Shown piece after piece: positions 18,390 through 39,648 of a DNA stretch of 39,648 nt; position 1 is the first letter of the stretch, and each line of letters starts with the position of its first letter. The DNA is from an uncultured Prochlorococcus sp. Lineage in GTDB: Bacteria > Cyanobacteriota > Cyanobacteriia > PCC-6307 > Cyanobiaceae. The stretch lies in the NCBI GenBank assembly GCA_902564235.1, contig CACFAG010000010.1:1-39648 (forward strand), written 5' to 3'. The notes beneath the pieces were generated by a model, which did no database searches, was not told where the DNA came from, and saw only the letters and a program-made list of their open reading frames with translations. A program made the translations under genes and the position numbers.

Positions 18390-19007
18390 GTGTTAAATTC
18401 TAGTAAGAGAAATCTTTCAAAAGCTCAAAATGAGTTATATGAATGGATAAAAAATTATATGCACGACTTTCAACATAGCCCAACTATAAGGCAAATGATG
18501 AAAGGTATGGGACTTAAGTCGCCTGCCCCTATTCAAAGTCGTCTTAAACACTTACAAGAAAAGGGATACATATCATGGCAAGAAGGTAAAGCTAGGACAC
18601 TTCAAATTGTAGATGAAATTTTTGAAGGCATACCCGTAATGGGATCAGTAGCAGCTGGAGGATTGATTGATACTTTTTCCGATATTAGTGAGAATTTAGA
18701 CATATCTGATATTTTTAAGAAAAAGGGTGTTTTTGCACTCACGGTAAATGGAGATTCTATGATTGATGCTTGTATTGATGATGGAGATATGGTTTTGATG
18801 GAGCCCATAAAAGATAAATATTCACTAAAGAACGGCACAATAGTAAGCGCAATGGTTCCAGGTTTGGGAACGACATTAAAATATTTTATAAAAAAAGGTG
18901 AGAAAATTTATTTAGAAGCGGCTAATCCAGCTTATGAGCCAATTGTACTAAATTTGAATGAAGTTGTTTTTCAGGGAAAACTTCTCGCAGTTTGGAGAAG
19001 AGTGTGA
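18390..19007 (+). CDS. lexA: LexA repressor
   Basis: SOS-type transcriptional repressor, 205 residues, GTG start. The N-terminal winged helix (SPTIRQMMKGMGLKSPAPIQ) precedes a self-cleavage peptidase. The scissile bond would be A89-G90, the nucleophile S123 (NGDSMIDA) and the general base K164 (TTLKYF); all are intact, so RecA-induced cleavage is expected. Its leader has no convincing LexA box. It is the last recognisably core gene before the polysaccharide island. Confidence 0.95.
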   Translation: MLNSSKRNLSKAQNELYEWIKNYMHDFQHSPTIRQMMKGMGLKSPAPIQSRLKHLQEKGYISWQEGKARTLQIVDEIFEGIPVMGSVAAGGLIDTFSDISENLDISDIFKKKGVFALTVNGDSMIDACIDDGDMVLMEPIKDKYSLKNGTIVSAMVPGLGTTLKYFIKKGEKIYLEAANPAYEPIVLNLNEVVFQGKLLAVWRRV

Positions 19008-21727: not shown

Positions 21728-22429
21728 ATGACAATGAAAATATATCGAGATCAAACATTTCAAAAATTTAAACCAGTAATTTTGGAGAATGGCTTACGTA
21801 GTCCAATATGCGACGTTGATGCCAAAACACTTCGGCGAATTCAAAAAGGAACGATGCAGCATAGTTGGAAAGGTGTAATGTGTAACAAAAATCCGTTCGA
21901 TATGGCATTGTATGGAATGCTCCTTTACGAAATTAAACCCAAAACAATAATAGAAATCGGATATAAATTTGGAGGGAGTGCGCTTTGGTTCGCAGACCAA
22001 GCTAACATAATGGGATTAGAACCAGAGTTGTTGTGTATAGATATCGAACAACGAGAAATGGTGGCAGATCCTCGAATAAAGTTCATGCATGGAGATGGAC
22101 GTGACCTCTCTAAAAGTCTACCCATTGATTTATTATCTAAGTTGGATCATCCATGGCTTGTAATAGAAGATGCTGACCATTCTTTTGATACAACTTTATC
22201 AGTTCTTAAATTTTTTAACAGATATATGAAGACTGGTGACTATATCGCAGTCGAAGATGGAATATGTGACACCTTCGGTAACCAAGATATATATGATGGT
22301 GGTCCGAACAAAGCTATTTATAATTTTTTGGAAGACGAATCTTCAATGTTTGAAGTCGATGCTTATTATTGTGATTTCTTCGGAAACAATGTAACCTGGT
22401 GCACTAATGGATTTTTACGGCGTTCTTGA
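21728..22429 (+). CDS. CmcI-like (cephalosporin hydroxylase family) methyltransferase
   Basis: A 233-residue class I SAM-dependent methyltransferase of the CmcI / rhamnosyl O-methyltransferase group. The SAM motif is EIGYKFGGSALWFA near residues 77-90, followed by CIDIEQRE, a MHGDGRD segment and LVIEDADHS, with AVEDG further on as in the metal-dependent members. In this setting it probably O-methylates a sugar of the surface polymer; the name hydroxylase is historical. It stands alone on the plus strand between long gaps. Confidence 0.82.
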   Translation: MTMKIYRDQTFQKFKPVILENGLRSPICDVDAKTLRRIQKGTMQHSWKGVMCNKNPFDMALYGMLLYEIKPKTIIEIGYKFGGSALWFADQANIMGLEPELLCIDIEQREMVADPRIKFMHGDGRDLSKSLPIDLLSKLDHPWLVIEDADHSFDTTLSVLKFFNRYMKTGDYIAVEDGICDTFGNQDIYDGGPNKAIYNFLEDESSMFEVDAYYCDFFGNNVTWCTNGFLRRS

Positions 22430-24306: not shown

Positions 24307-25317
24307 CTAGGATACTTTAAAAATAACACCATTTGTAATTTGCCTTCTAGCACGTTCTACCCTGAACGCATTTCCACGATCTGCGTCTAAGTCGTCAAGA
24401 AGCTCTTCATATTTATTTTCAATTTCTTCCAGATAATTGAGAGCATCATCCTTGGTGCCCTTTAGAGCAATTAGATATGTTTTAGAAAGATCCATGTAGA
24501 AACTGTATCTCCGATCTAGAAATTGTGATGGATGCTTATCATGTAGCTTCAGGCATTCATCCAATTCGAATTCATGGTAGGGATCCACGTTTGCAATTTC
24601 CAAAGGTACTTCCTTAATATTCTTGTAAATCGAGCTTGTAGCAATTTGTCCTTGCCATTCGAAATATTCTTCTAAATACCCCATGGTTACTTTGATCCAA
24701 GGGAGACGATCAAAGAAAAAATCTTGATTAATTAGCCAAGATTCATTGGGTATTAAATTTGGGTAAAATTGCTTAGAGACATGGCGGTTAAGTGTTGCTG
24801 TCTTACAAACATCAATAAAACATATTTCAATGGGTGAATCTGGCCAAACTTGCTCCACAAGATCGCCGATTTTGAGCTCGATTTGGTCTTTATACTCAGA
24901 AATTGTATCCATTAATATTGGAACAAATGATTCGCCAAGAACATAATCCACGCCTCCAAACACCCTTTTTTTGTTGATGTCTTTATTTTTTGGAGCAGGG
25001 AGAAAGCCAAGTTCAAACCCGTGAATAGGTTTTTTGTTAGGAAACTTACTAAAGTCTATTTTCTCTTTTGACAAATTTGCGTTCAAGCCGGCTGCAGAGG
25101 AAACGAGAGAAGAGCCAAAAAAACTTCCTCCATCTATTATTACCCCTTTGCCTTCATAAATTTTTGAAGCTAAATAAAATAACATCTGACGCTCGCTGTA
25201 AGACAGCATGCCTGCCGCATTCTCAACTTCAGGTTTAAGGTCAACATTTTGGCTTAAAAATGTTTCTCTTAATGCACCTGTTTTAAAAATTTTAAAATTT
25301 GAATGATTAGTCTGCAT
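24307..25317 (-). CDS. methyltransferase-like protein of the FGSS type
   Basis: A 336-residue protein with a Rossmann-like start, VIIDGGSFFGSSLVSSAAGL, comparable to the SAM-binding loop of the methyltransferases at 31069 and 37606, which read LELGPLFGSSTD. Later EICFIDVCKTATLNRHV and LINQDFFFDRLPWI parallel their YFDDATHG and GDDF segments. I infer a distant relative acting on the same polymer. No membrane segment is seen. It starts with ATG, lies between the large glycosyltransferase (88-base gap) and the TPR-methyltransferase (12 bases), and may form an operon with both. Confidence 0.65.
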   Translation of the reverse strand: MQTNHSNFKIFKTGALRETFLSQNVDLKPEVENAAGMLSYSERQMLFYLASKIYEGKGVIIDGGSFFGSSLVSSAAGLNANLSKEKIDFSKFPNKKPIHGFELGFLPAPKNKDINKKRVFGGVDYVLGESFVPILMDTISEYKDQIELKIGDLVEQVWPDSPIEICFIDVCKTATLNRHVSKQFYPNLIPNESWLINQDFFFDRLPWIKVTMGYLEEYFEWQGQIATSSIYKNIKEVPLEIANVDPYHEFELDECLKLHDKHPSQFLDRRYSFYMDLSKTYLIALKGTKDDALNYLEEIENKYEELLDDLDADRGNAFRVERARRQITNGVIFKVS

Positions 25318-25404: not shown

Positions 25405-28400
25405 TTAGTTGTGAAGGTTGTCGTTCTCGGACTTATTTGGTGATTCAAATTTTGTTTCCTTTTCATTTTTTTTAGGCCTTAAATTAGTAAGTTTTGATTT
25501 TATTGAAGAGAATAAACCTCGTAATTTGTTTTTATTTCTTAAAGACTTATCTTCGCCTCCAGATTTCCGTTGAGCTAACTTTTTTTTGAGCTCACGAACC
25601 TCGGAGTTGCGTTCTTTTAGCTTCGATGCTGTTAAATTTAAATTCTTTTTAAACTTATCCAACTCGGAATTACGAGCTTTCAATTTTGTTTCCTTTTCGT
25701 TCCTTTCTGCCCTTACATGATTAAGTTTTTCATTTTGAGCTTTTAATTTTGCTTCCTTTTCATTCCTTTGCGCCCTTACGTGATTTAGTTTTTCATTTTG
25801 AGCTTTCAATTTTGCTTCCTTTTCATTCCTTTGCTCCCTAACCTTATTTAGTTTTGCTTCCTTTTCATTCCTTTGCTCCCTAACCTTATTTAGTTTGTCA
25901 ATTCGATTCTTTAAATTTTCTTCTTTTTTACTATTTTCACCCCTTAAAAAAGTAAGTTTGTCATTGATAGACGCAAAGAGACTTCGTGATTTTTGTTTGA
26001 GGATAAGATCCTTATTTTCTGAGATAATAGCATCACGTAGTTTCAGCTTTTCTCTGGCAGAATTTAGTTCAGAAACTCTCTCCTTCTTAATTTTTTTTAG
26101 CTTATCAATTTCTTTGATCCGCTTAAGTTTTAGCTCTTTTTGCTTGCTGCGATCTTTTCGAAGTCGTTTGTTGTCACGTTCGAGTTTTGATGTTTTATGA
26201 AATAGACCATAAAAGAGAAGGAAAAGATTTCGATAAATCAAGGGGCCATAACGAAGGCTTGGCCGTAATGCACGAAAAGTTGAAGCTCTTAAATTATATC
26301 CATCGAGATTGATGGCATTGTTATCAATTTTCCTATTCCAATACAAAGGTAAAGGAATAGTTTCTCCTTTATGTCCATTGAACTCTAACGCATGGTATAG
26401 TTCCTTTTCTGCATTTAATTGTCTGTAATCTCCAGTAAACCCTCCCACTTCAAGAAAGGCTTGCCTATCGACAAGTAAATCCCAGTGTTCTAAATCATTT
26501 TTTAGTAATGTATAGCCTATATTACCTAATATTGGCATTTTAATTTTTTCTGCCAAATCAGTGGACGATGGTATTGAGTTACTGGAATATTCTAGTGAAA
26601 ATGATGTTAATACCTTTAAATCTCTTTTTTGTAGTACCTTTACCATTTTCGACAGACTGCCAGGTAGGACTGCATTCCCTGGTTGTGTGAAGTATAAAAA
26701 CTGGGCCTCGGTATTTTTGACTGCGGTATTTGCTGCCAAGCCATATTCAATTCCTGGTGTCTCGTAAAAAGACCAGCCTTTTTTTCTAATTTTCAGCTTA
26801 ATATGATCTAGTTCAGTTAATGTTTTCGTATTTCTACTGCCATCATCGACAACAATAACATCTAGCTTTACGTCACTTTCTTTAGCAAGGTTGTTAAGAG
26901 TATTTTTTAATCCTTCAATATCGTCTCTGTGCGGAATAATTACACAAATATCAACTTTTGCTTGTTTGGGTTCTTCTGACGAGTGATTTTCGTTTTGAAT
27001 GATTTTTTTTATATTACGATGGTATGAGATCCAAGTTTTTGTATTTTCTTTATTGTCAAAAGTGGGTGCAGCGACTATCGCGCCATTAGTGAGGGCAGCT
27101 TTGAGTTGCTTTTGTAAGGTTAGGGGATGGGCATCGCACAAAACGTCTTTATGATATTTCTCCTCAACTAGTTCGGGTGTTCCGCCAGAGTTTGATGCAA
27201 TGAAGGGAATCCCACATATAGAAGCTTCGTAAACTGCTAGAGAAGAGTTTTCAATGTGACTTGGCATCACAGCCAAACGATTGCCATCAAGTAAATAACT
27301 CAGGGCAGCTTCCTGCTGAAATTCTGTTAATATTTGAACTTCGGTAGGCCAATGGTCCGAGCTTTCTTTGATGAATTCCAACACGTTTAAATCGGGACGG
27401 GTTTCTATTCTTGCACCAGGTTTCCCCATGAAGGATATTTTTGAAGGTAGTTTGACTTCGCTATTGATCAGATTGTTTATGGAGTTAATAAAGATATCTA
27501 GTCCTTTCCTAGCTTCAAGGCGGCCAAAAAATACTATTTCATCAATTGATACTCGATCACCAGGTTTTAATGATCTTTTCGAAATGACTCCATCAAGCAC
27601 TTCGGTTGATAGGATATTAGGCTGAACAAAGATTTTTTCATTTAATAAATCATATCCTTGACTTAACATCCATCTTAATAAATGGGTTGAACCTCCAATT
27701 ATGTGATCACCGAGTTCTACAGACATCCTCTCACAAAACATCTTATCTATATCATCAATTGTATTTAGAGGAAGCGATCCGTAGGTCCTATTCCAAAGCC
27801 ATGGCGAAGAGCATTTCACAATGAAATGAGTATTTTTTAATGCAAGGCCTTGACGTTTAGCCAGTAGGCTAAGGTAACCGCTTCCTCTCCATTCAGATAC
27901 ATGAACTACATCATAATGAAACTCTTGCAAATGACGTAACATGTTGTACATTGGTGCGGTCCATCGATCGTTGTTCCCTGCACATCTATCTGATAAGTAA
28001 TAGTCATCTACTCCTATAAACTTCACCCCAAATTCTGCATAGTGTTTGATCCATTCCTCCAACGTACCAATCTCAACATAGTCTTTTCGCAAATAGAGGA
28101 TGGTAACATCGAACCCCTCTGCTGCCAGTAATTTCGCCAAATAGGAATAAGTAGTGCCTATTCCTCCATTCCTTACTGGACCAACTATGTCTTCTGTTGC
28201 AATACAAATCTTCGAGGAGGTGTTTCCAATATCGCCGATGTCAAGACTATTCAGATCAGGAAAATTGATTTCCCAAGAATTAGTCTCTGGGGACAAAAGT
28301 TCACGTGTGTCTGGCCTAGGCAAGCAACTTGCAATAACTGTTTCAAGAAGACGAGTTCCTAATTTATCTTCTTTCTGCAGTTTTTTTGAGGATTTTAAAT

Positions 28401-28416
28401 GCTCATACTTTGACAC
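25405..28416 (-). CDS. GT4-GT2 bifunctional glycosyltransferase with C-terminal coiled coil
   Basis: A 1003-residue protein starting with GTG. Residues about 68-460 form a GT4 (GT-B) enzyme: the N-terminal glycine loop GPVRNGGIGTTYSYL near 79, FFGRLEARKGLDIFI, and the E-x7-E-like ENSSLAVYEASICGIPF. Residues about 487-740 form a GT2 (GT-A) domain beginning VDICVIIPHRDDIEG with VIVVDDGSRNTK. From about 765 a Lys/Glu/Arg-rich coiled coil runs to near 930, with tandem units of 14 and 21 residues (RNEKEAKLNKV type). The tail ends KSENDNLHN. It could add two sugars in turn while held on a partner or on itself through the coiled coil; donors and acceptors are unknown. Base composition is higher than in the exporter genes. 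Confidence 0.85.
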   Translation of the reverse strand: MSKYEHLKSSKKLQKEDKLGTRLLETVIASCLPRPDTRELLSPETNSWEINFPDLNSLDIGDIGNTSSKICIATEDIVGPVRNGGIGTTYSYLAKLLAAEGFDVTILYLRKDYVEIGTLEEWIKHYAEFGVKFIGVDDYYLSDRCAGNNDRWTAPMYNMLRHLQEFHYDVVHVSEWRGSGYLSLLAKRQGLALKNTHFIVKCSSPWLWNRTYGSLPLNTIDDIDKMFCERMSVELGDHIIGGSTHLLRWMLSQGYDLLNEKIFVQPNILSTEVLDGVISKRSLKPGDRVSIDEIVFFGRLEARKGLDIFINSINNLINSEVKLPSKISFMGKPGARIETRPDLNVLEFIKESSDHWPTEVQILTEFQQEAALSYLLDGNRLAVMPSHIENSSLAVYEASICGIPFIASNSGGTPELVEEKYHKDVLCDAHPLTLQKQLKAALTNGAIVAAPTFDNKENTKTWISYHRNIKKIIQNENHSSEEPKQAKVDICVIIPHRDDIEGLKNTLNNLAKESDVKLDVIVVDDGSRNTKTLTELDHIKLKIRKKGWSFYETPGIEYGLAANTAVKNTEAQFLYFTQPGNAVLPGSLSKMVKVLQKRDLKVLTSFSLEYSSNSIPSSTDLAEKIKMPILGNIGYTLLKNDLEHWDLLVDRQAFLEVGGFTGDYRQLNAEKELYHALEFNGHKGETIPLPLYWNRKIDNNAINLDGYNLRASTFRALRPSLRYGPLIYRNLFLLFYGLFHKTSKLERDNKRLRKDRSKQKELKLKRIKEIDKLKKIKKERVSELNSAREKLKLRDAIISENKDLILKQKSRSLFASINDKLTFLRGENSKKEENLKNRIDKLNKVREQRNEKEAKLNKVREQRNEKEAKLKAQNEKLNHVRAQRNEKEAKLKAQNEKLNHVRAERNEKETKLKARNSELDKFKKNLNLTASKLKERNSEVRELKKKLAQRKSGGEDKSLRNKNKLRGLFSSIKSKLTNLRPKKNEKETKFESPNKSENDNLHN
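25690..25895 (-). repeat. tandem repeats coding for coiled-coil units (42 and 63 bp)
   Basis: Two identical 42-base units start at 25812 and 25854 (TTGCTTCCTTTTCATTCCTT at the start of each on the plus strand) and encode 14-residue units. Adjacent 63-base units, with small differences, encode 21 residues (LNHVRAQRNEKEAKLKAQNEK-type). Both lengths are whole heptads, so changes in copy number keep the coiled-coil phase. Confidence 0.9.
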
Positions 28417-29119: not shown

Positions 29120-29923
29120 TTAGGAAATACGACTTTTTATTTTATATTTTTTAAAAAAATTATCTCTGATCTGACGAGCAAATCGTATAGGCAATAACCA
29201 TCGAAGTAAAAATATAAGAAAAGCTAGAAAATAGAATTGTACATGCATGGGTTTAAGCTGAGCAGTAAGTTTTAGGTCATAAAAAAAATTTTTTAATGCA
29301 ATTTGCGCAGACGCTCTGGCATTTTCATGGAGATTGTAATCAATCAATATTTCAGGTTGGTTGAATATTTTTGAGAATGTTTCTTTTCGAGAAAAGAAAT
29401 GTTTGTCTTCCAAAAATGGAGTAGTTTTAAATTCTTTCCCAGTAAGCATATTGAGATTTATAGCTAAAGAACAGTTTGCGAAAGAAATATTACTCAAATA
29501 ATGAAATAAGGTAGGTTTTTGGGGATATATTCTGACCTGTTTAAATTCTGGGTCTCCTATTCTATTAATTTTTAATGCAGTAGAGAAAAAAACCTTATCA
29601 GGATTTGATTTCATGCACTGTAGTTGTGATACTACTCGGTTAGGAAATGGACGATCATCAGCATCTGATTTGAAGAAGTAATCATACTTTCTATTTCTAG
29701 CGATATCTAATGCTTGGTTGAGCAACACACCTGATGAATCTGTATCGACAAATATAACTTCATTACTTAATGTTCCAAAGTCTTTTCTGTTAGTGATTAC
29801 TATGAAGTCTAAAGTTGAGCATTTAGGGATTTCTTGAGAACGAAAAATATCTTCTAAATTATTTATGTACTCGATACTATGCCATTTATTTAGTAATACA
29901 CAGTAAATCAGTTTATTTGGCAT
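29120..29923 (-). CDS. GT2-family glycosyltransferase with C-terminal membrane segment
   Basis: A glycosyltransferase of about 267 residues (two more if the upstream TTG is used). FIVITNRKDFG, VDTDSSGVLLNQALDIA and the metal-site FFKSDADDRPFPNRV indicate a GT-A fold of the GT2 type. FLEDKHFFSRKETF lies where the acceptor base ED-motif is usually seen. A hydrophobic stretch (FYFLAFLIFLLRWLLPI) near the end may anchor it at the inner membrane. It begins inside the 3' end of the GT4 gene, so the two are translationally coupled. Confidence 0.8.
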   Translation of the reverse strand: MPNKLIYCVLLNKWHSIEYINNLEDIFRSQEIPKCSTLDFIVITNRKDFGTLSNEVIFVDTDSSGVLLNQALDIARNRKYDYFFKSDADDRPFPNRVVSQLQCMKSNPDKVFFSTALKINRIGDPEFKQVRIYPQKPTLFHYLSNISFANCSLAINLNMLTGKEFKTTPFLEDKHFFSRKETFSKIFNQPEILIDYNLHENARASAQIALKNFFYDLKLTAQLKPMHVQFYFLAFLIFLLRWLLPIRFARQIRDNFFKKYKIKSRIS

Positions 29924-31067
29924 TATCAAGATATACGGGTAAAACTTGGTCTACAAATAATTGGGAAAATGCAAACTCATCTCTTCTTTTCCATTCTGGA
30001 TTTTTCTTTTGATTAATTAAACTCATAACAGATTCAGCAAAAAGTTCTGGTGTGTTTTCAGAGAATGCTCCAACTTCTAATCCGAAACGTTTAGCTTGTT
30101 GATGCATTCCGATTGTATTGCTAGCTACAATTTTAAACCCTGCTAAGGCATATTCAACGATTTTTAACGAAGGAGCCATTTGGTGTCGTAAAGATGCCAT
30201 ATATGCCATTCCAATTGTGTTTTTTTGACTATCACTATTCATATTTTGATAAAGTTTGCTTTGTTTGATGTTCCCTAAAATTTTGGTGTTTTTTATTTTT
30301 TTTAAGTAGTTAAAAACTTCCTCTGAACAAGGTCCGGCAATTTTAAAAACGTGATCAGAATTACGCAAGTCATGAGATAAGATCTCAAGGGTTTTTGGTA
30401 TAAAAAGTGGTTCCCTATTGGCTTTTGATAGTGTCCCAATATACCAAATAACTATCTTGTCCTCCCTTCTCTTATTCGTAGCGGCATCCAATTCAGAGAA
30501 TTGTTGATAATGTAAGTCGTATTTTTTATTTATTGTATTAAAAACAAAATCGTTCCAACCTAAGTCAAAAATTTTTGCCTCCTTTTTTTTCTTTGAATTA
30601 AGAAAGAAATGATTTGTTTTAACGGCGTTAATATTCCCAGCGTAAATATCGATAGGAAATAAAAACAAGTTAAAAGCTTTTCTTAAAAAAGGATTAGCAG
30701 AAATGTTTACAGATCGATGGTCGCAAATGAAAGTGCACTTAACATCAAAAAAGATACATAAAATCTTTGCCAACGATATAGAAGGAACATTGTTTAATCG
30801 GTAAAAAAAGTGCAAAACTTGAATTTTGTTACATTTAATAATTCTAAACAAACGAATAGCATTCAAAAATCTATTAATCAGTCTTTTATTAGGACGCAGT
30901 TTCTGAAATATTGAACCTAAGTCTTCGATTTTACTTCTATTTCTGACGGTGTCAAAAACAAAAACTTTGTTTATTTTATCTTGATTTGATGCTTCTCTAA
31001 TGTATGTTTCAGCAGCAATAGCACCTTGTGTACCGAGTACTTCTAAACTAAAAAATCCTATATTCAT
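29913..31067 (-). CDS. GT4-family glycosyltransferase
   Basis: A GT-B enzyme of 384 residues from the ATG reading MNIGFFSLEVLGTQGAIA (a TTG three codons upstream is possible). The C-terminal domain has VIWYIGTLSKANREPLF, VFKIAGPC and the nucleotide-sugar region SLKIVEYALAGFKIVASN, whose Glu fits the E-x7-E site. It starts one base after the stop of the upstream methyltransferase and overlaps the next GT2 gene, forming a tight three-gene operon. Sugar specificity is unknown. Confidence 0.82.
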   Translation of the reverse strand: MNIGFFSLEVLGTQGAIAAETYIREASNQDKINKVFVFDTVRNRSKIEDLGSIFQKLRPNKRLINRFLNAIRLFRIIKCNKIQVLHFFYRLNNVPSISLAKILCIFFDVKCTFICDHRSVNISANPFLRKAFNLFLFPIDIYAGNINAVKTNHFFLNSKKKKEAKIFDLGWNDFVFNTINKKYDLHYQQFSELDAATNKRREDKIVIWYIGTLSKANREPLFIPKTLEILSHDLRNSDHVFKIAGPCSEEVFNYLKKIKNTKILGNIKQSKLYQNMNSDSQKNTIGMAYMASLRHQMAPSLKIVEYALAGFKIVASNTIGMHQQAKRFGLEVGAFSENTPELFAESVMSLINQKKNPEWKRRDEFAFSQLFVDQVLPVYLDNAK

Positions 31068-31068
31068 C

Positions 31069-32088
31069 TTAACCAATTAAACGTAAACAATTAATTCTAT
31101 CGTTATCTAAAACAAAGGTTGATCCAAAAGCAATCATCTCGTTGTTAGAGCTCTTCTTTTTGATTATGGTGGATATTTGAAAAAATTTATTTATGTTATG
31201 TATTCTATTTAAGAAAGAAAAGGAGATGGATTTAATATCCTTAAGTTCAATCCACTGATTTTCATGATATTCCTTTTTGAGTCCTTGCAAAGTTTCAATC
31301 GATATAATTAAGCTAGTCTTTTCTTTCCCTAATTGCCCTTTCTTATTGCGAGTAATCTTGAATTTCTCGAGTTGATTTGCATTTATATGAAGATTTTCAG
31401 ACCAACATGGCGCTAGTGATTGGCCAGATGATAATTGAGATACTGTATGGATGTTGTATCCAATCATTTTTGGGTAAAGATTATTTAACGCTCTTTGTAT
31501 AACCAAGTCTGCCCTATTGGATAAACCCATTGCCCATAATCTCCCGATAACATAAAAATTTTTTTTGTATTTTTCAGAAAGCTGTCTAACGTTTTTTACA
31601 ATATCCGGCCAACCATAGGCAAAGTCGTCGCCGCAAATAATCGTGTTTTTCCCAAAGAATGGTTTATAGAAATTAAAGTTTTCCATCCAATTTGGGTTGC
31701 CATGTGTAGCGTCATCAAAATAAATGTCTATTTTTTGTTTCCAAGTATTTTCAACAACGCCTGGTGAAAATCCTTCTATCACTTCAAGATTTTTGATGTG
31801 GGATGTGTAATGATCAAATCTCTCCCTACTTAAGTCAAAACCTAATCTCTTCTTAACCCATGGAGCTGCTTCAAAAGTATCTATAGAAACAATTTTAGAA
31901 GGATTGACTTCAGACCTCCCTTTGGATATTGCATCGGTTGAAGATCCAAATAATGGTCCAAGTTCTAAGATTACACCTTCATTATTTTCTTTACTCTGTT
32001 CGCTGACTATTGAGGTGAGTAAATTAAGTCCCTCTTTTGTCATAGTTCTTGGAATATCGATACTCTTCAATGTTCTTGCTATCTTCAT
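31069..32088 (-). CDS. class I methyltransferase-like protein, copy 1
   Basis: A 339-residue protein with a SAM-binding-like motif LELGPLFGSSTDAISKGR, then IVSIDTFEAAPWVKK and DIYFDDATHGNPNW, a pattern seen in class I methyltransferases acting on sugars. The N-terminal 240 residues are about 83% identical, by hand alignment, to the protein at 37606-38703, while the C-terminal 95 residues have diverged. ATG start. It heads the operon with GT4 and GT2 and probably modifies the glycan they build. Function is inferred from motif and setting. Confidence 0.7.
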   Translation of the reverse strand: MKIARTLKSIDIPRTMTKEGLNLLTSIVSEQSKENNEGVILELGPLFGSSTDAISKGRSEVNPSKIVSIDTFEAAPWVKKRLGFDLSRERFDHYTSHIKNLEVIEGFSPGVVENTWKQKIDIYFDDATHGNPNWMENFNFYKPFFGKNTIICGDDFAYGWPDIVKNVRQLSEKYKKNFYVIGRLWAMGLSNRADLVIQRALNNLYPKMIGYNIHTVSQLSSGQSLAPCWSENLHINANQLEKFKITRNKKGQLGKEKTSLIISIETLQGLKKEYHENQWIELKDIKSISFSFLNRIHNINKFFQISTIIKKKSSNNEMIAFGSTFVLDNDRINCLRLIG

Positions 32089-32094
32089 TAGAAG

Positions 32095-32123
32095 ATATTA
32101 CCGAATAAGAATAAATTTTTCAA
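32095..32123 (-). promoter_or_regulatory. candidate promoter of methyltransferase copy 1
   Basis: On the minus strand TTGAAA (32118-32123), a 17-base spacer and TAATAT (32095-32100) precede the ATG at 32088 by only six bases, so the message would be leaderless or nearly so. The same block upstream of copy 2 reads TTGATA, 17 bases, TTAAAA. Confidence 0.45.
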
Positions 32124-32169
32124 CATATTCTTTAATTATATTTTTATTTGAATAAAACGTATTTTGATA

Positions 32170-32199
32170 TTGACAACTAATTCCTTAATAATGTAAAAG
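32170..32199 (+). promoter_or_regulatory. candidate promoter of the second epimerase
   Basis: A perfect -35 TTGACA (32170-32175), followed after 18 bases by a weak -10-like TAAAAG (32194-32199), in the direction of the epimerase. The -10 is poor, so this is tentative. Confidence 0.3.
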
Positions 32200-32391
32200 T
32201 TTGGAGGGTTGTTCTTTAATGTAGGAATCTTATAAGAGTTTTTGTTATGAGTGAAGATGATTTTCTTTAGATGGCCAGTTGCATTAAAGTTTTTTATTAA
32301 TTATCATTTTTTTTTATATTAAGAGGTATTTTATTAATGAGATTATTTTATCCAACCTTTGTTTTGAATTCACCTAAAAGGGATTAGTAAA

Positions 32392-33315
32392 TTGAAAAAA
32401 GTATTTGTTACCGGTGGAGCAGGATTTGTCGGGTCTTCTCTTATCAATGTTTTGCTCAATTCTGAGTTGGAAATTGTTAGTTTTGATAATCTTTCAGGAA
32501 GTCCAAAGCCATATATTAATCATCCAAATATTAAAAATATTGTAGGAGATATAAAGAATTTCAATGAGGTGTTTGAGGCGTCTTCAGGCTGTGATACTTT
32601 TTTTCATCTTGCAGCTTCTGGAAATGTTATTGATTCAATAAAAGATCCAATTGCTAATTTAGAAAGTAATGTCTTAGGAACATTAAATTGTCTTCGTGCA
32701 GCTTCTGCGAACAATGTAAATAAATTTATATTCTCGTCAACCGGTGGAGCACTTATGGGGAATACTCCTCCTCCTGTTAACGAGGAGAGTGTACCTTCTC
32801 CAATATCACCTTATGGAGCTAGTAAGTTAGCTTGTGAAGGCTATTGCAAAGCCTTTTCATCTTCTTTTGGCTTGCATACGACAATATTTAGGTTTGCAAA
32901 TGTTATTGGTGAATTCTCTGCGCATAAAAAGGGAGTAATAAATAGATTTTATAAAAATCTTAAAAATGATAAAGAACTCGTTATCTTTGGTAACCCTACT
33001 CGCGATTTTATTTATGTAAGAGATCTAGTAAATGGGTTAATCTTGGGTGCTAAAGCAAATATTGATGCGGCAGAAATTTTTCATTTGTGCTCTGGGGTTG
33101 AGACCAAAATATCTGATGTAGCTGAATTAATGGCACAAATCTGTGGTAAGCAAAATATTAAAATCGAATTTCAAGGTTTTAGAGATGGCGAAGTTGAAAG
33201 AACATTTGCTTCAAATCAAAAAGCAAGTGAACTTTTAAATTTTAAATGTGAGCATGATATTCAATCTGCTTTAGAAAGTACCATTAACTGGTTTGATAAC
33301 TATAAATCTATTTAG
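32392..33315 (+). CDS. NAD-dependent sugar epimerase/dehydratase
   Basis: A 307-residue extended short-chain dehydrogenase. It has VFVTGGAGFVGSSLIN at the start, FHLAASGNV, the catalytic YGASKLACEGY and RDFIYVRDLVNGL. It acts on a nucleotide sugar, most likely as a UDP-glucose 4-epimerase-type enzyme. The start is TTG, preceded by AAAGGGA as a plausible ribosome site. The active-site Ser/Thr region reads FSSTGGALMGN, so Thr may serve as the catalytic hydroxyl. It converges with the exporter operon and sits apart from the other epimerase by 12 kb. Confidence 0.85.
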   Translation: MKKVFVTGGAGFVGSSLINVLLNSELEIVSFDNLSGSPKPYINHPNIKNIVGDIKNFNEVFEASSGCDTFFHLAASGNVIDSIKDPIANLESNVLGTLNCLRAASANNVNKFIFSSTGGALMGNTPPPVNEESVPSPISPYGASKLACEGYCKAFSSSFGLHTTIFRFANVIGEFSAHKKGVINRFYKNLKNDKELVIFGNPTRDFIYVRDLVNGLILGAKANIDAAEIFHLCSGVETKISDVAELMAQICGKQNIKIEFQGFRDGEVERTFASNQKASELLNFKCEHDIQSALESTINWFDNYKSI

Positions 33316-33390
33316 AAAACTATTTATTAAAATTTTTAAAATTAAAATCCATTTTTTTTTAAAGTAAATCTTAATTTTCTTTTTTTGAAT

Positions 33391-34686
33391 TTATTCTGTG
33401 TGATTTGTAGTTATTCCAAATATAAACTTCGAAATTGAAGATATTATTATTAGAAGAGATAGATATGTAAGGAAACCTCTATGTCTCCATACATGCCATG
33501 GTTCCTCAGGTTCAAGAGGCCTTGATAATATTGCTAAAAATATTTGTTGTTGAATACTGTCTATCCTATTGCTTTCAGTCTTTGCAAGAGTAGTTTTATA
33601 AAGCTCCTCAAAGAATAGTATATTGTTATTTATCTCATTTAGTTCAAAGGATCTTTGATTTAATGCATATTCATTTTCACTAACTAATTTTCCTCTTTCT
33701 AATTCAATTTGTTCCCTTAAACTTCTAATTTGGTTTTCAATTAATTCTATTTCGGGTACATCATCCATAACAAAAACCCTTTTTCTTTCTAAGAGTTTGA
33801 TATTTAATTTAATGATTTCCTCTTCTAGAGCAATAATTACTTTAGAAATAGATTCAGCCTCGGATCTTAAATCAATTGATTTATATTTTGCTTGGAATTC
33901 TTTTAATCTATCTTTTTCATAATCAAGTCTTTGCTTAGATAAATCAACTTGATTTTGAAAAAATTGTAATTGTTTCTTTGAAATATCATAATTTAATTCA
34001 TTAATAAATAATTCAGATTCCTTGACTAAAAACTGATTGATAAAAAGTGCATCTTCTGGGGTAAAGGCTTTTACTTTTATTTCTAGTACGCCATTTTCTT
34101 GGTTAGTAAAAATAGTGAGTTGCTTTTTAAAAAATTGATATTTTTTATCCTGATTAGAATTTGAATTTAAACCAGAAAACAAATCTATCCCTTTTTTTCT
34201 ATATATGTAACTAAAATTTAAATCCTTTTCTATTTTTTGAAACATTTCTGGTGACTTTAAATAGACTTCTAGATATTTTGATTCGTTCAAAGAAGCTTGA
34301 TTAGCTAATCCTGTAAATATAGAACTAAAATCGGTTGGGATACTATTTTTGTTTGCTGCTTTTCTTAAAACAACTGAAGAACTAACTAAATATTTGTTTC
34401 TTCCTATAAAATAATAATAAGAAAATAAAAAAGGGGTTAAAGTAATTAATATAAGTAAAATATATTTTTCTAAGGATGAAGTTCTTTTTAACTTACGTGT
34501 AAAAAAGGTAAGAAAATCTGAATTTAATTTAAAATTTTGTTTTTTTAAATAGTCCTTAAAAAATAATTTTGGTTTTTGTATAAACTTTGAAATTTCATCC
34601 TTTGATAATTTTGGTTTTTGTATAAATTTAAAAAATTTACTCTTTAATAATTTAGATTTTTGTATTAATTTTGAAAAATCACTCAT
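33391..34686 (-). CDS. KpsE/Wzz-type polysaccharide co-polymerase (capsule export inner-membrane protein)
   Basis: A 431-residue protein with an N-terminal membrane segment near residues 75-95 (LLILITLTPFLFSYYYF) and a second at about 408-425 (LTYLSLLIIISSISKFIF). Between them lies a long periplasmic coiled coil, and the Pro-rich RPLEPEEP precedes the second segment, as in KpsE/BexC/CtrB. Its job is to span the periplasm between the ABC pair and the outer-membrane channel. Odd: the cytoplasmic N-terminus has three 14-residue repeats built on KFIQKPKL. Last gene of the exporter operon, 3 bases from the ATPase gene. Confidence 0.85.
   Translation of the reverse strand: MSDFSKLIQKSKLLKSKFFKFIQKPKLSKDEISKFIQKPKLFFKDYLKKQNFKLNSDFLTFFTRKLKRTSSLEKYILLILITLTPFLFSYYYFIGRNKYLVSSSVVLRKAANKNSIPTDFSSIFTGLANQASLNESKYLEVYLKSPEMFQKIEKDLNFSYIYRKKGIDLFSGLNSNSNQDKKYQFFKKQLTIFTNQENGVLEIKVKAFTPEDALFINQFLVKESELFINELNYDISKKQLQFFQNQVDLSKQRLDYEKDRLKEFQAKYKSIDLRSEAESISKVIIALEEEIIKLNIKLLERKRVFVMDDVPEIELIENQIRSLREQIELERGKLVSENEYALNQRSFELNEINNNILFFEELYKTTLAKTESNRIDSIQQQIFLAILSRPLEPEEPWHVWRHRGFLTYLSLLIIISSISKFIFGITTNHTE
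34565..34676 (-). repeat. three 42-bp direct repeats in the KpsE-like N-terminus
   Basis: Copies begin at 34565, 34607 and 34649; the first two share AATTTTGGTTTTTGTATAAA on the plus strand and the third has drifted. Each codes a 14-residue unit such as ISKFIQKPKLFFKD or FFKFIQKPKLSKDE in the cytoplasmic tail. The low-complexity DNA invites slippage. Confidence 0.85.
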
Positions 34687-34689
34687 TGA

Positions 34690-35406
34690 TTATTCCTCCA
34701 GGTTTTCTTGAGAAAAATCGCTTTCTGAATCATTATTTTTTGTAAGTAATTTATTGCAATCTTTTAATGCTAGATATACATCATCATATTCTATCATTTT
34801 TTGATCATGCAAAATGAAACCCTTTTCAATATTATTATTCTTTAAAAATTCATAATTGTGAGTAACGATTATAAAGCTTGAAAACTGTTTTAATTCTTTT
34901 ACTGCCTGTTTACATTTTTCTCTAAATCCTATATCACCTCTTGCTAATACCTCGTCGAGTAAATATACGTCGAACTTAAAAGCTAATGATAATCCAAAAG
35001 AAAGTCTTCCCTTCATACCAGAAGAATAAGTTTTGTATGGTCTATCGAAATAATCACCTATATCTGCAAAGTCTCTTACTATTTCAATTTTTTCTTCAAT
35101 CCCCTTATTTGAATGAGTGCCGAAAATTTTACTTACAAATTTTACGTTTTCGCTAGCAGTCAAACCTGCTTGAAAACCTGAAGCGACTCCAAATGGCCAA
35201 CTTATAGAACAATTTTTGTTTATATAACCAGAATCTGGAAAGTCAATTCCTCCTAAAATTCTCAGAAGAGTAGATTTACCAACACCATTACCTCCAAGAA
35301 CACATACTGATTCCCCATCTTTAATACTAAAATTTAAATTTTTGAAAACATACTTTCGCTTGCCATTATGTGAATAACTTTTAGTAAGGTTTTTAACTTC
35401 TATCAT
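34690..35406 (-). CDS. polysaccharide ABC exporter ATPase (KpsT-like)
   Basis: ATP-binding subunit of a capsule or O-antigen exporter, 238 residues. Walker A is GGNGVGKST at 38-46, followed by the ABC signature YSSGMKGRLSFGL, Walker B VYLLDEVLARGD and the switch His in VTHNYEFL. The signature SSGM instead of SGGQ is typical of KpsT/Wzt-type ATPases. No long C-terminal carbohydrate-binding domain, so it is nearer KpsT than Wzt. Its ATG overlaps the permease stop by ATGA. Confidence 0.92.
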   Translation of the reverse strand: MIEVKNLTKSYSHNGKRKYVFKNLNFSIKDGESVCVLGGNGVGKSTLLRILGGIDFPDSGYINKNCSISWPFGVASGFQAGLTASENVKFVSKIFGTHSNKGIEEKIEIVRDFADIGDYFDRPYKTYSSGMKGRLSFGLSLAFKFDVYLLDEVLARGDIGFREKCKQAVKELKQFSSFIIVTHNYEFLKNNNIEKGFILHDQKMIEYDDVYLALKDCNKLLTKNNDSESDFSQENLEE

Positions 35407-36200
35407 TTTGTTTGCAATATCCTTTCATTCTTCGAATATATTAATAATCCCAAGAATAAAATAATTAATGTGCTTTTGGCTAGATAAGAAAATGATATCA
35501 ATGGATCGAGTAAATAAAGGTCTGAAAATCCTTTTCGAGAAAGTTCTATTGCTTGCAAAACAGGATTCCAACTTAACCATGGTTTAAGCCATTGAGGTAA
35601 TGCTGCAAGGGAAAAGAAAGTTCCGCTAAGAAAATATAAAGGCCTAAATATTATATTAACTATTTCTCTCATAAATAGATATCTACTACCTGCTACCATG
35701 ATTATCAGTCCAAGACCGAAAGAAAGAATTGCTATAAATAAGTAACATATTAAAATTAAAGGTAAATTATCTAAAACCCAAATATTTTTGAAATAGTAAT
35801 AACCAGACATAATTATTAGATAGATAGAACCATAAATGTATATTTCCACAAATGATCGAGCAGTCAGAGTATCAAATGGCTTTACTCTGGAGTAATAAAA
35901 AAGGGCATAATTAGAGTTAATAGAATCAACAGACCTTCGAGAAATTGAATTAAAAAGTCCGTAGACAATATTACCGCTGCTTAGAAATATTATAAGGTCA
36001 AGAGTGAAAACAGGTTCAAACCCTCTTCTAAATCCTAAAAGTAATAACCATATAATAATTAATCCTATCGGTTCAAATAGAATTCCAAATAAGCCAAATC
36101 TCACTTTCGAAATCCTAGTTAAAAGTTCTCTATAATAGAGTCCTCTTATGACATCTATTTGAATTTTCAAACCTTTTTTAATTTGTGAAAAGGAGGTCAT
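35403..36200 (-). CDS. polysaccharide ABC exporter permease (KpsM-like)
   Basis: ABC-2 type inner-membrane protein, 265 residues with about six membrane segments and a basic cytoplasmic N-terminus (LYYRELLTRISKVRFGL). The region LPQWLKPWLSWNPVLQAIE, before the last membrane segment, is characteristic of polysaccharide and polyol-phosphate exporters. A strong ribosome site AGGAGG lies directly before the start read on the plus strand as AGGAGGTCAT, but on the coding strand the leader is AT-rich. It overlaps the ATPase by 4 bases and follows the outer-membrane gene by 21. Confidence 0.9.
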   Translation of the reverse strand: MTSFSQIKKGLKIQIDVIRGLYYRELLTRISKVRFGLFGILFEPIGLIIIWLLLLGFRRGFEPVFTLDLIIFLSSGNIVYGLFNSISRRSVDSINSNYALFYYSRVKPFDTLTARSFVEIYIYGSIYLIIMSGYYYFKNIWVLDNLPLILICYLFIAILSFGLGLIIMVAGSRYLFMREIVNIIFRPLYFLSGTFFSLAALPQWLKPWLSWNPVLQAIELSRKGFSDLYLLDPLISFSYLAKSTLIILFLGLLIYSKNERILQTK

Positions 36201-36221
36201 TTAAATTTTTCTTAGAAATAC

Positions 36222-37316
36222 TTAGTCTGAGAAGACTCTATAAATTGTTACTGGTGCAATTAATTCTGAAAATGGTTCAACTATCGTTTTTATAGTTGCT
36301 GAACTTTTTGCCCAAGCATTTTTTTCAACAACTATCACATCTCCATCAATCAATGTAGGATTATTTAAAAGATCAGCTTTATTAGAAATACTATAGGAAG
36401 TTATTGATTTCGTAATTGTTCCATTAGGGTTCATTCTTATTAATGCGATTTTATTTTTATTACTTTTGTTTGTTATGCCTCCTGCGCTCAAAATTGCTTG
36501 AGATAGAGGACTATTTGTTTTTATGGTTTGTAAACCAGGATTATTGACTTCTCCTACTACATTAATAGTTATTGAGTCAGGAGAAAAACTAGATGAGGCT
36601 ATTGTGAATAGTTCATTATTCTCTCTTATTTTAATAGGATCTATTCTTACACTATCTCCATCATATATATAGTGATTTTCTATAGGTTTGCCATTTTTTA
36701 AGGTGTCCCAATAATTAACTTTTGTAATTTGAATTTGAGAGTTTTTCTTGTTTCCTCTAATTAAATTTACATTTTTAAGATCTCCTTTTTTGGTTATTCC
36801 ACCTGCTTTTTGTATGGCATCAACTAATGTTGGCCAGCCATAAGTTTTTATTGATGTTTGTTCTCCTCCGTCATTATTAACGAGTTGATTTTCACCTTGA
36901 ATATCAATACTATATATACCGGGCCGGTTAACCTCTCCTGTGATTGCTACTCTTATAGGTCTAGTTTTCAATAAATCTAAATATATAATAGGATTTCTAA
37001 GTATCTTTGAGTATGAATTGGAGAGTTTATTCTTGGCATCTTTTAGAGTCAAATCGTTAACATTTATTGTGCCTATTCTATTGACATTAATTGTTCCATC
37101 AGGCAAGACTATTACCTCTGAATTAAATTCGTCGTAGCCAAAAACTCTTATTAATAGCCTGTCTCCTGGACCTAAATGGTACATAGGTAATATTTTTGAT
37201 GAACTTAAAGAGCTATTATTGTATGTTTCTGCCTTGGATTCTTTAACGAAGAGATTGACTTTAGGTCCAAACAAAAAAAATATCACAAAGAAAGATATTA
37301 TCTTAAATTTTTTCAC
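36222..37316 (-). CDS. outer-membrane polysaccharide export protein (Wza/KpsD-like)
   Basis: A 364-residue exported protein, GTG start, with a signal peptide (ISFFVIFFLFGP core, probable cleavage after ESKA near residue 29). The polysaccharide-export domain follows (LGPGDRLLIRVFGYDEF, then VLPDGTINV) and one or two SLBB-type domains (VAITGEVNRPGIYSI and INVVGEVNNPGLQTI). It would form the outer-membrane channel for the polymer and contact the KpsE-like protein. No lipobox Cys is seen. First gene of the exporter operon. Confidence 0.9.
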   Translation of the reverse strand: MKKFKIISFFVIFFLFGPKVNLFVKESKAETYNNSSLSSSKILPMYHLGPGDRLLIRVFGYDEFNSEVIVLPDGTINVNRIGTINVNDLTLKDAKNKLSNSYSKILRNPIIYLDLLKTRPIRVAITGEVNRPGIYSIDIQGENQLVNNDGGEQTSIKTYGWPTLVDAIQKAGGITKKGDLKNVNLIRGNKKNSQIQITKVNYWDTLKNGKPIENHYIYDGDSVRIDPIKIRENNELFTIASSSFSPDSITINVVGEVNNPGLQTIKTNSPLSQAILSAGGITNKSNKNKIALIRMNPNGTITKSITSYSISNKADLLNNPTLIDGDVIVVEKNAWAKSSATIKTIVEPFSELIAPVTIYRVFSD

Positions 37317-37605
37317 TTCTATTGATATAGAAAAGTCTAAATAACTATATCATAAGGAGTTTGTATTACTAGGTTTAGATAAATCTTCAAAAAGTTAAAA
37401 AAATATTTATCCTGCTCAATTAATTATTCATAATTTAAAACTCTTCTCTTTTAATTAATGGACGTGGTTACTGCTTGTATTGAATTTTTGTAATAGGTTC
37501 ACCAAAATTTGATTCAAAAAATATTAAATTAAAGGATATTAGTAATAATCATCAAACAATTTTCGAAATAGAACCTACATGTCCTTGAGCAGTCAAATAT
37601 TAAAC
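37317..37605. other. intergenic region, 289 bases
   Basis: AT-rich gap upstream of the exporter operon. No gene or clear hairpin is seen; it presumably carries the exporter promoter. Confidence 0.5.
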
Positions 37606-38703
37606 TCATTTGTCCTCACTTTGGTAGTTTGCATATTGTATGTTCCCATCAACATGCATTAAAGCTTTTAAATAAGCAGTTCCATCAGTATCGCCAGTAA
37701 AACGCAAGCAATTAAGTCTGCTATTTTCTTTGAATTTATAAATTGAACCAAAAGAAAGCATCACACTATTTGCGGTAGTACGACCGGTTATATAGGATAC
37801 CTGGAAGAAGTGATTTTTGTTGAAACTTGGATTTTTGCAAGTAAGTGAGATGGATGTCATATTCTCAGTATTAACCCACTCATTTTCTTCATAAAAAATA
37901 GGACCATCAGGGGTGCCAACCGTGATTTTTATATCAGTATCCTTTTCTGTAATAGCATCTTTTTCAACATTATGATTATTGTGAGTAATTTTGAATGCCT
38001 TGAGTTGATTATCTTTTACATGAAGGTTCTCAGACCAACATGGTGCTGGCGATACACCAGAAGATATTTGTGATTTAGTCTGAATATTGTAATCAAAAGT
38101 TTTTGAGTATAAATTTTTTATCGAATTTCTTATAACTAAGTCTGATCTATCTGATAAACCCATTGCCCATAATCTACCTATTACATAAAATTTCTTATTA
38201 TATTTTTCAGAGAGTTGTCTGACATTTTTAACAATATCTGGCCACCCAGATGCGAAGTCGTCGCCGCAAATAATCGTGTTTTTTCCAAAAAATGGTTTAT
38301 AGAAATTAAAGTTTTCCATCCAATTTGGATTGCCATGAGTAGCATCGTCAAAATAAATATCTATTTTTTGGTCCCAAGTATCTTTAACAATATCTGGTGA
38401 AAATCCCTCTATTACTTCAAGATTTTTGATATGTGAGGTGAAAAAATTAAACTTCTCTCTGCTTAGATCAAAGCCTAATCGTTTCTTAACCCATGGTGCG
38501 GCTATGAAGGTATCTATTGATACGATTTTACTGGGATTTTCAGACGATCTTCCTTTGGATATAGCGTCTGTAGAGGAACCAAAAAGTGGACCAAGTTCTA
38601 GAATTACACCTTCGTTGTTCTCAAGACTCTGTTCTCTGACAATTGATGTTAGAAAGCTAAGGCCTTCCTTTGTCATAGTCCTTGGGATGTCGATGGAACT
38701 CAA
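37606..38703 (-). CDS. class I methyltransferase-like protein, copy 2
   Basis: Paralog of the protein at 31069-32088, with the same LELGPLFGSSTDAISKGR, DIYFDDATHGNPNW and IICGDDFASGWPDIV elements. Its C-terminal 120 residues differ from copy 1 and are about 25 longer (ending NIQYANYQSEDK). The start is TTG; upstream in-frame codons run into TAG, and the region that gives copy 1 its ATG has been altered. It lies 289 bases upstream of the exporter operon on the same strand. Probably a methyltransferase for another position on the same polymer; unproven. Confidence 0.68.
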   Translation of the reverse strand: MSSIDIPRTMTKEGLSFLTSIVREQSLENNEGVILELGPLFGSSTDAISKGRSSENPSKIVSIDTFIAAPWVKKRLGFDLSREKFNFFTSHIKNLEVIEGFSPDIVKDTWDQKIDIYFDDATHGNPNWMENFNFYKPFFGKNTIICGDDFASGWPDIVKNVRQLSEKYNKKFYVIGRLWAMGLSDRSDLVIRNSIKNLYSKTFDYNIQTKSQISSGVSPAPCWSENLHVKDNQLKAFKITHNNHNVEKDAITEKDTDIKITVGTPDGPIFYEENEWVNTENMTSISLTCKNPSFNKNHFFQVSYITGRTTANSVMLSFGSIYKFKENSRLNCLRFTGDTDGTAYLKALMHVDGNIQYANYQSEDK

Positions 38704-38965
38704 TTTATTGTTTAAACTCTATTGATTTTAACCGAATAAGATTAAATTTATCAATGAATATTCTCCAAAGGATATTTATTAGCATAAATTAGTAGTAATT
38801 TAAAAAACAATGAGTTAATAGTATTTATGGAATTTGCAGAAATTTTGTAAAACAAAATAAGGTTTAGTTATTTTATAAAGAATGTCTAAATAGACATTAT
38901 TAATGTTCTCGCAGTTTATTTAGTAAGGCATGGTAAGGTGGTGAAATATAAAAATACTTATTCCT
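38704..38965. other. intergenic region with small hairpin
   Basis: A 262-base AT-rich gap. A perfect 7-bp stem (AATGTCT at 38881-38887, AGACATT at 38892-38898) with a 4-base loop lies about 70 bases past the RTX gene stop and could end that transcript, though the T run on the minus strand is short. The candidate promoter of the methyltransferase (TTGATA at 38749-38754, 17 bases, TTAAAA at 38726-38731, minus strand) lies at the other end. Confidence 0.4.
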
Positions 38966-39648
38966 CTAGATGATGTTCAGGTCAGTTACTGTTAAGGTTG
39001 AATTCTGAATGATTGCCAAGAGGTCATCATTTAAATAAATATTTGTATGACCACTACCATAAGAGAATGTAAAATCATTTTGATTGTAACTCCCAGAGAT
39101 TGTTAAGCTATCTTCCCCTGTAGAGTAATCTGTAATCAAATCTCTACCAAAGCCAGTAACAATTTGGAAATTATCATTTCCACTCCCTCCAGTTAATTGA
39201 TCATTTCCAATTCCTCCAATGAGAGTATCACTTCCATTGTTGCCATATAAGAAATCATTATTATTTCCACCATTTAAAGTATCGTTGCCATTATGACCGT
39301 AAAGGGTATCAACGCCTGATTCTCCGTTTAGGATATTATTTTTACTATTCCCATTGAGAGTATTATTTAAATTATTACCAGTAGCGTTTATATTTCCAGT
39401 TCCTATAAGGGTTAAATTTTCCACATAATTAGAAGCTGTATAACTTACATAGGACCGAATTAAATCAGTTCCTCCAGTAGAAGAACTTTCAATAACATCA
39501 TCACTAGCATGATTTACAACATAAGTATCATTCCCATTCCCTCCAACCATTTGATCAATATCACCATTCCCATTAAGAATGTCATCTCCATCTCCGCCAT
39601 ATAAGTTGTCATTATTATTTCCACCATTTAGAGTGTCATTTCCATTAT
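38966..39648 (-). CDS. RTX calcium-binding repeat protein, C-terminal part (5' end outside window)
   Basis: The frame stays open to the window edge: codons upstream of the ATG at 39550 continue the repeats (NGNDTLNGGNNNDNLYGG, DGDDILNGNG), so that Met is internal. Glycine-rich nonapeptides of the form G-G-x-G-x-D-x-L-x bind calcium and form a beta-roll; at least a dozen are visible, interrupted by a spacer region (YVVNHASDDVIESSSTGG) typical of the M10/serralysin-like C-terminal units. Such proteins are usually large and secreted by type I export. The visible tail ends STLTVTDLNII. The secretion gene partners and N-terminal domain are not in view. Confidence 0.9.
   Translation of the reverse strand, partial: NGNDTLNGGNNNDNLYGGDGDDILNGNGDIDQMVGGNGNDTYVVNHASDDVIESSSTGGTDLIRSYVSYTASNYVENLTLIGTGNINATGNNLNNTLNGNSKNNILNGESGVDTLYGHNGNDTLNGGNNNDFLYGNNGSDTLIGGIGNDQLTGGSGNDNFQIVTGFGRDLITDYSTGEDSLTISGSYNQNDFTFSYGSGHTNIYLNDDLLAIIQNSTLTVTDLNII

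Follow-up and report, generated by a model that had tools for sequence, protein, structure and literature searches.

A diverged methyltransferase gene pair around a capsule-type exporter of Prochlorococcus suggests exchange of the methyltransferase gene, with the exporter left in place

In an uncultured Prochlorococcus, two related methyltransferase genes enclose a polysaccharide export cluster, which raises the question of what recombination has moved here: the exporter that lies between the two genes, or the methyltransferase genes themselves. According to the original prediction the two copies were near-identical, and recombination between them could delete, duplicate or swap the 5-kb exporter cassette. 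The window, that is the whole stretch of 39,648 nucleotides that we analysed, is an entire contig (GC 32%) of a 1.2-Mb genome that is 68% complete. Core genes extend up to lexA, which ends at about position 19007, and are followed by surface-glycan genes, among which the following features were considered:

29913 to 31076, minus strand: probable glycosyltransferase, directly after MT-A and overlapping its end
31069 to 32088, minus strand: MT-A, open reading frame for a Methyltransf_24-like O-methyltransferase with a beta-rich C-terminal domain (PF13578, E 5e-5)
31624 to 31797 (approximate), minus strand: tract of MT-A that resembles a conversion (codons about 98 to 155 of the alignment), with excess silent identity to MT-B
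32100 to 32123, minus strand: 24-bp box upstream of MT-A, inside which a promoter-like TTGAAA-N17-TAATAT starts
32392 to 33315, plus strand: NAD-dependent sugar epimerase/dehydratase (PF01370, E 4e-47; 90% identical to that of AG-422-F18)
33391 to 34686, minus strand: KpsE/BexC/CtrB-type inner-membrane export protein (TIGR01010, E 4e-57, below cutoff)
34690 to 35406, minus strand: KpsT/TagH-type ABC ATPase (PF00005; TagH-type models)
35403 to 36200, minus strand: KpsM-type ABC-2 permease (PF01061; NF050053, E 4e-31, below cutoff)
36222 to 37316, minus strand: KpsD/Wza-type outer-membrane export protein (Poly_export PF02563 and SLBB PF10531)
37606 to 38703, minus strand: MT-B, open reading frame for a paralog of MT-A, 69% identical to it and longer by about 28 residues at the C-terminus (PF13578 match)
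38731 to 38754, minus strand: 24-bp box upstream of MT-B, inside which a promoter-like TTGATA-N18-TAAAAT starts

Profile matches confirmed that the two methyltransferase genes, which have the same direction, bracket an epimerase and four export genes. KpsD, KpsM, KpsT and KpsE types are adjacent, the arrangement that defines a Kps-type locus, and as in the Kps, Ctr and Bex capsule loci they occur together beside sugar enzymes and glycosyltransferases. The window differs from those loci in its cyanobacterial host and in scores that remain below the NCBIfam cutoffs, the equivalog level not being reached (KpsM 108.8 of 300, KpsE family 194 of 437.5); no kpsC- or kpsS-type gene was identified in the stretch examined. 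Since the gene at 29913 to 31076 has no confident Pfam match, its glycosyltransferase role is assigned from synteny: a glycosyltransferase adjoins the methyltransferase also in AG-422-F18, a close relative, and in a Rhodobacteraceae MAG.

Some further features of the region were recorded. The KpsE-type gene contains three tandem 42-bp repeats at its 5' end (34562-34694), which encode 14-residue repeats, and a second KpsD/Wza-type gene, 41% identical, is found elsewhere in the source genome (G000:C23:7228-8172). Beside MT-B lies an RTX-type calcium-binding repeat gene (38966-39648) cut by the contig end; contig C26 of AG-422-F18 and the Rhodobacteraceae cluster (L004) contain RTX genes as well. 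Towards lexA the window encodes a CmcI/rhamnosyl O-methyltransferase-like protein (21728-22429, PF04989), a 336-aa protein with zero Pfam matches that appears methyltransferase-like by eye (24307-25317), and a protein of 1003 residues with GT4-type and GT2-type glycosyltransferases and a long, repetitive, charged C-terminal tail (25405-28416).

We compared the two methyltransferases with each other. Their N-terminal parts are identical at 198 of 239 residues (alignment columns 1-245), and the 41 differences agree with the roughly 40 in 240 first counted; the 40-residue stretch QKIDIYFDDATHGNPNWMENFNFYKPFFGKNTIICGDDFA, identical in both proteins, is present as described. The C-terminal parts are indeed strongly diverged, with 37% identity over 93 aligned positions. 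However, the pair cannot be called near-identical: the full proteins share about 70% of their residues, the DNA is 79% identical in the best 300 nt, with longest exact runs of 38, 29 and 23 bp in all, and over codons 1-100 the silent identity (0.451) is that of random codon choice (0.435 expected for codons of the same amino acid, given codon usage). From this saturation it follows that the pair is old, and a recent duplication is ruled out. Between repeats so old and diverged, homologous deletion would not be expected to occur often at present.

The matching upstream DNA that had been noticed corresponds to the two 24-bp boxes, which are 92% identical (chance expectation within the window 0.01) and of which no other copy exists in the whole genome assembly at up to three mismatches. 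Promoter-like sites overall are no commoner than in shuffled sequence, so that the promoter reading of the boxes relies on their being shared and not on the consensus; in this reading MT-A and MT-B would each possess their own promoter-like element. As the annotated ATG of MT-A at 32088 would coincide with the predicted transcription start, the TTG at 32070, which aligns with the starts of MT-B and of the AG-422-F18 gene, is probably the likelier start.

Concerning function, PF13578 is matched over the complete profile, with scores of 24.6 for MT-A, 24.8 for MT-B and 28.3 for the AG-422-F18 gene (gathering cutoff 26.3). Predicted structure models, which are weak (mean pLDDT about 60), match MeT1, MycF, SpnH and COMT with Z of 10-11 and rmsd of 3.5-3.8, over alignments of 158-174 residues within residues 6-192 at about 10% sequence identity, and Foldseek matched the low-confidence MT-B model to TrmR (E 4e-7); the models thereby point to a class I Rossmann methyltransferase fold over residues 10-192. 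A sequence search of the solved structures gave no matches. The middle block of the genes encodes a conserved YFDDATHGN and IICGDDF core. An acidic DD motif in the proteins may bind metal. A SAM-dependent fold with an acidic DD motif is shared with MycF, SpnH, NovP and MeT1 (Methyltransf_24 or TylF-CmcI-like), whereas MT-A and MT-B are extended at the C-terminus by a beta-rich domain of some 100 residues. This domain gave no fold match, all matches lying within residues 6-192, so that it was barely probed; its divergence makes it the likely site of acceptor specificity. From the fold and from the capsule-cluster context, both proteins are probably O-methyltransferases that act on sugars of the exported polysaccharide, and their targets in the glycan secreted by the KpsMTED-type system probably differ in position or residue. 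A rare methyltransferase family is named in this way, and its two forms could have different glycan targets.

Divergence along MT-A and MT-B is not uniform. Across codons 98 to 155 or so, 41 of the 50 degenerate codons for the same amino acid are identical between the two genes (permutation p=0.003, a value from one gene pair). Taking the AG-422-F18 gene as a third sequence, C, the silent identity between A and C is raised in the tract (0.735; codons 1-100 give 0.44), whereas that between B and C is ordinary there (0.698), with no rise relative to the neighbouring blocks, which indicates that the donor of the tract in MT-A was of B type. Nucleotide site patterns agree: those joining B and C against A and those joining A and B against C stand at 9:16 in the tract and at 168:64 elsewhere (Fisher p=0.0004, for blocks chosen after inspection of the data). 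By FastTree, MT-B groups with gene C (support 0.989), a grouping that is not resolved within the tract; a sister relation of A and B with the AG-422-F18 gene outside the pair was thus not supported. A local tract of silent identity that disagrees with the remaining gene is what gene conversion is expected to leave, here with moderate strength from a single pair, and the tract fits an old conversion of MT-A by B-type sequence. The overwriting would not be recent, because about 22% of the silent comparisons differ.

The same block could also be alike without any recombination between A and B, if the two were separately acquired xenologs held together there by protein and codon constraint on a SAM/metal core. 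That the block encodes the YFDDATHGN/IICGDDF core agrees with this, as does a random silent expectation that is itself higher in the block (0.54). However the observed A-B silent identity in the middle block is 0.78, above that expectation, B and C show no corresponding elevation, and the ratio of the two site patterns reverses in this block only. We therefore consider constraint an unlikely explanation.

What was exchanged can be judged from AG-422-F18. Its contig C52 (L003) carries, in order, the KpsE end, the epimerase, a methyltransferase and a glycosyltransferase, with amino acid identities to the window of 95% for the KpsE end (92% in nucleotides), 90% for the epimerase and 75% for the glycosyltransferase. 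The methyltransferase, the only one found in this assembly, occupies the position of MT-A (position A), and yet its protein resembles MT-B (83% identity) more than MT-A (67%); together with about 130 bp upstream it gives its best DNA alignment to MT-B (82%, against 71% for MT-A). By sequence it is the ortholog of MT-B. Along the A locus, identity to AG-422-F18 amounts to 77-94% as far as the epimerase; at the intergenic boundary between epimerase and MT-A it drops to 53-72%, and past this boundary it rises again only in the conserved core. On a second contig, C44 (L035), KpsD, KpsM and most of KpsT are present at 88-94% nucleotide identity; homology ends about 55 bp upstream of KpsD, and a short unrelated sequence then leads to tRNA-Ala GGC, with neither a methyltransferase nor an RTX gene between KpsD and the tRNA. 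The two contigs are unjoined, so the continuity of exporter and epimerase in AG-422-F18 is assumed, and an amplification chimera could conceivably lie behind the arrangement; the comparison involves one close relative, and both assemblies are single-cell-type drafts, about 68-69% complete.

The first idea, in which homologous recombination between the methyltransferase genes, acting as direct repeats, leads to loss, doubling or exchange of the complete exporter cassette, can be weighed against these data. In its favour are the common orientation of the two genes with the cassette in between, the exact matches 38 and 29 bp long and the exchange between MT-A and MT-B of which the tract is evidence. 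A hybrid copy lacking the exporter, or else two exporters, had been named as what to look for in strains, and neither is present in AG-422-F18: this genome, with its one methyltransferase gene, keeps the exporter, and the gene at position A is a full-length B-type copy and not a hybrid. Considering also that the DNA identity reaches just 79% even in the best 300 nt, we regard this account as very improbable. Recombination involving the methyltransferase genes is the part of the original prediction that finds support; movement of the exporter is the part that does not. Since in AG-422-F18 the exporter is kept and a B-type gene lies at position A, the comparison suggests that recombination moved or swapped the methyltransferase gene, leaving the exporter in place, and it indicates that this gene moved along with the DNA upstream of it.

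The direction of the change can be read in two ways. Both genes might be ancestral in their places, the B gene of AG-422-F18 having overwritten A and the B copy having then disappeared together with the stretch of the island next to the tRNA. This would account for the B-type gene at position A of that genome and for the empty interval between KpsD and tRNA-Ala. It requires, however, that an entire gene was replaced along with 130 bp upstream and that a loss took place separately, and the glycosyltransferase beside MT-A is unusually diverged from its AG-422-F18 counterpart (78% in nucleotides, against 88-92% for the epimerase and KpsE), which fits a replacement on the window side; we hold this order of events to be possible but doubtful. 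The reading we favour, with reasonable though not full confidence, is that MT-A and MT-B belong, as old paralogs or xenologs, to one sugar O-methyltransferase family within a replacement-type glycan island, A being a mosaic and a B-type gene now lying across the exporter. The order epimerase, methyltransferase, glycosyltransferase is found also in the Rhodobacteraceae MAG, and position A is therefore probably ancestral. In the simplest account a B-type gene would have been ancestral at this position; in the lineage of the window it would have been replaced by a diverged allele of A type, possibly along with the neighbouring glycosyltransferase, a B-type gene would have come to lie beyond KpsD, and codons 98-155 or thereabouts of MT-A would have been overwritten by B-type sequence.

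The phage sensitivity of marine picocyanobacteria is generally attributed to their surface-glycan islands, whose exchange has mostly been described for islands as a whole. The distance between lexA and tRNA-Ala(GGC) is roughly 6-44 kb in six near-complete congeners, with different content at the same site, which indicates that the site is fixed and the island in it varies; the KpsM type of the window is absent from most congeners, and the tRNA-Ala of the source genome is on another contig (L061). The interval from lexA to tRNA-Ala is then a replacement-type surface-polysaccharide island. Surface-glycan islands of this kind are exchanged by homologous recombination, as complete clusters at conserved flanks, between close strains (PMC4033161). 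The locus resembles these replacement flexible genomic islands, as an aquatic prokaryote here too has variable surface-glycan genes clustered at one constant place in the chromosome and recombination affects homologous genes, and differs from them because whole clusters are exchanged there, while here a single tailoring gene appears swapped or moved. Prochlorococcus also has tRNA-bounded islands and tycheposons (PMC10872708), which are likewise variable islands with a tRNA gene boundary; the cargo here, by contrast, is made of surface-glycan genes, and none of the ORFs of the window was noticed to encode a tyrosine recombinase, the end of the island next to the tRNA being on another contig. 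The exchange of a single tailoring gene is a fresh example of established surface-glycan recombination: it appears at this locus inside an export cluster that is conserved in other respects, and its breakpoints lie close to the gene ends. One might go further and imagine a promoter and methyltransferase unit that shuttles, in Prochlorococcus populations, between the two sites flanking the exporter, its core kept alike by conversion while the C-terminal acceptor domains diversify, as a slow switch of glycan methylation that alters phage recognition; this is a speculation that we consider very improbable.

Finally, the methyltransferase family was found in 2 of 266 congeneric genomes, both about 69% complete, G627 being evidently the AG-422-F18 assembly (its matches fall on the same contig numbers). 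A phage origin of the methyltransferases was rejected, as zero matches were obtained in the phage genomes searched, and viral contigs gave none with a single-protein query and only a 24% fragment in a profile search. In the Rhodobacteraceae MAG (L004) the epimerase, methyltransferase and glycosyltransferase adjoin capsule export genes of KpsE, KpsM and KpsT types, and the same stretch contains a second, distant methyltransferase and an RTX gene. Relatives on Azospirillum plasmids are likewise located in polysaccharide gene clusters; one of them (L039:14935-16155) apparently has two tandem methyltransferase domains in one protein.
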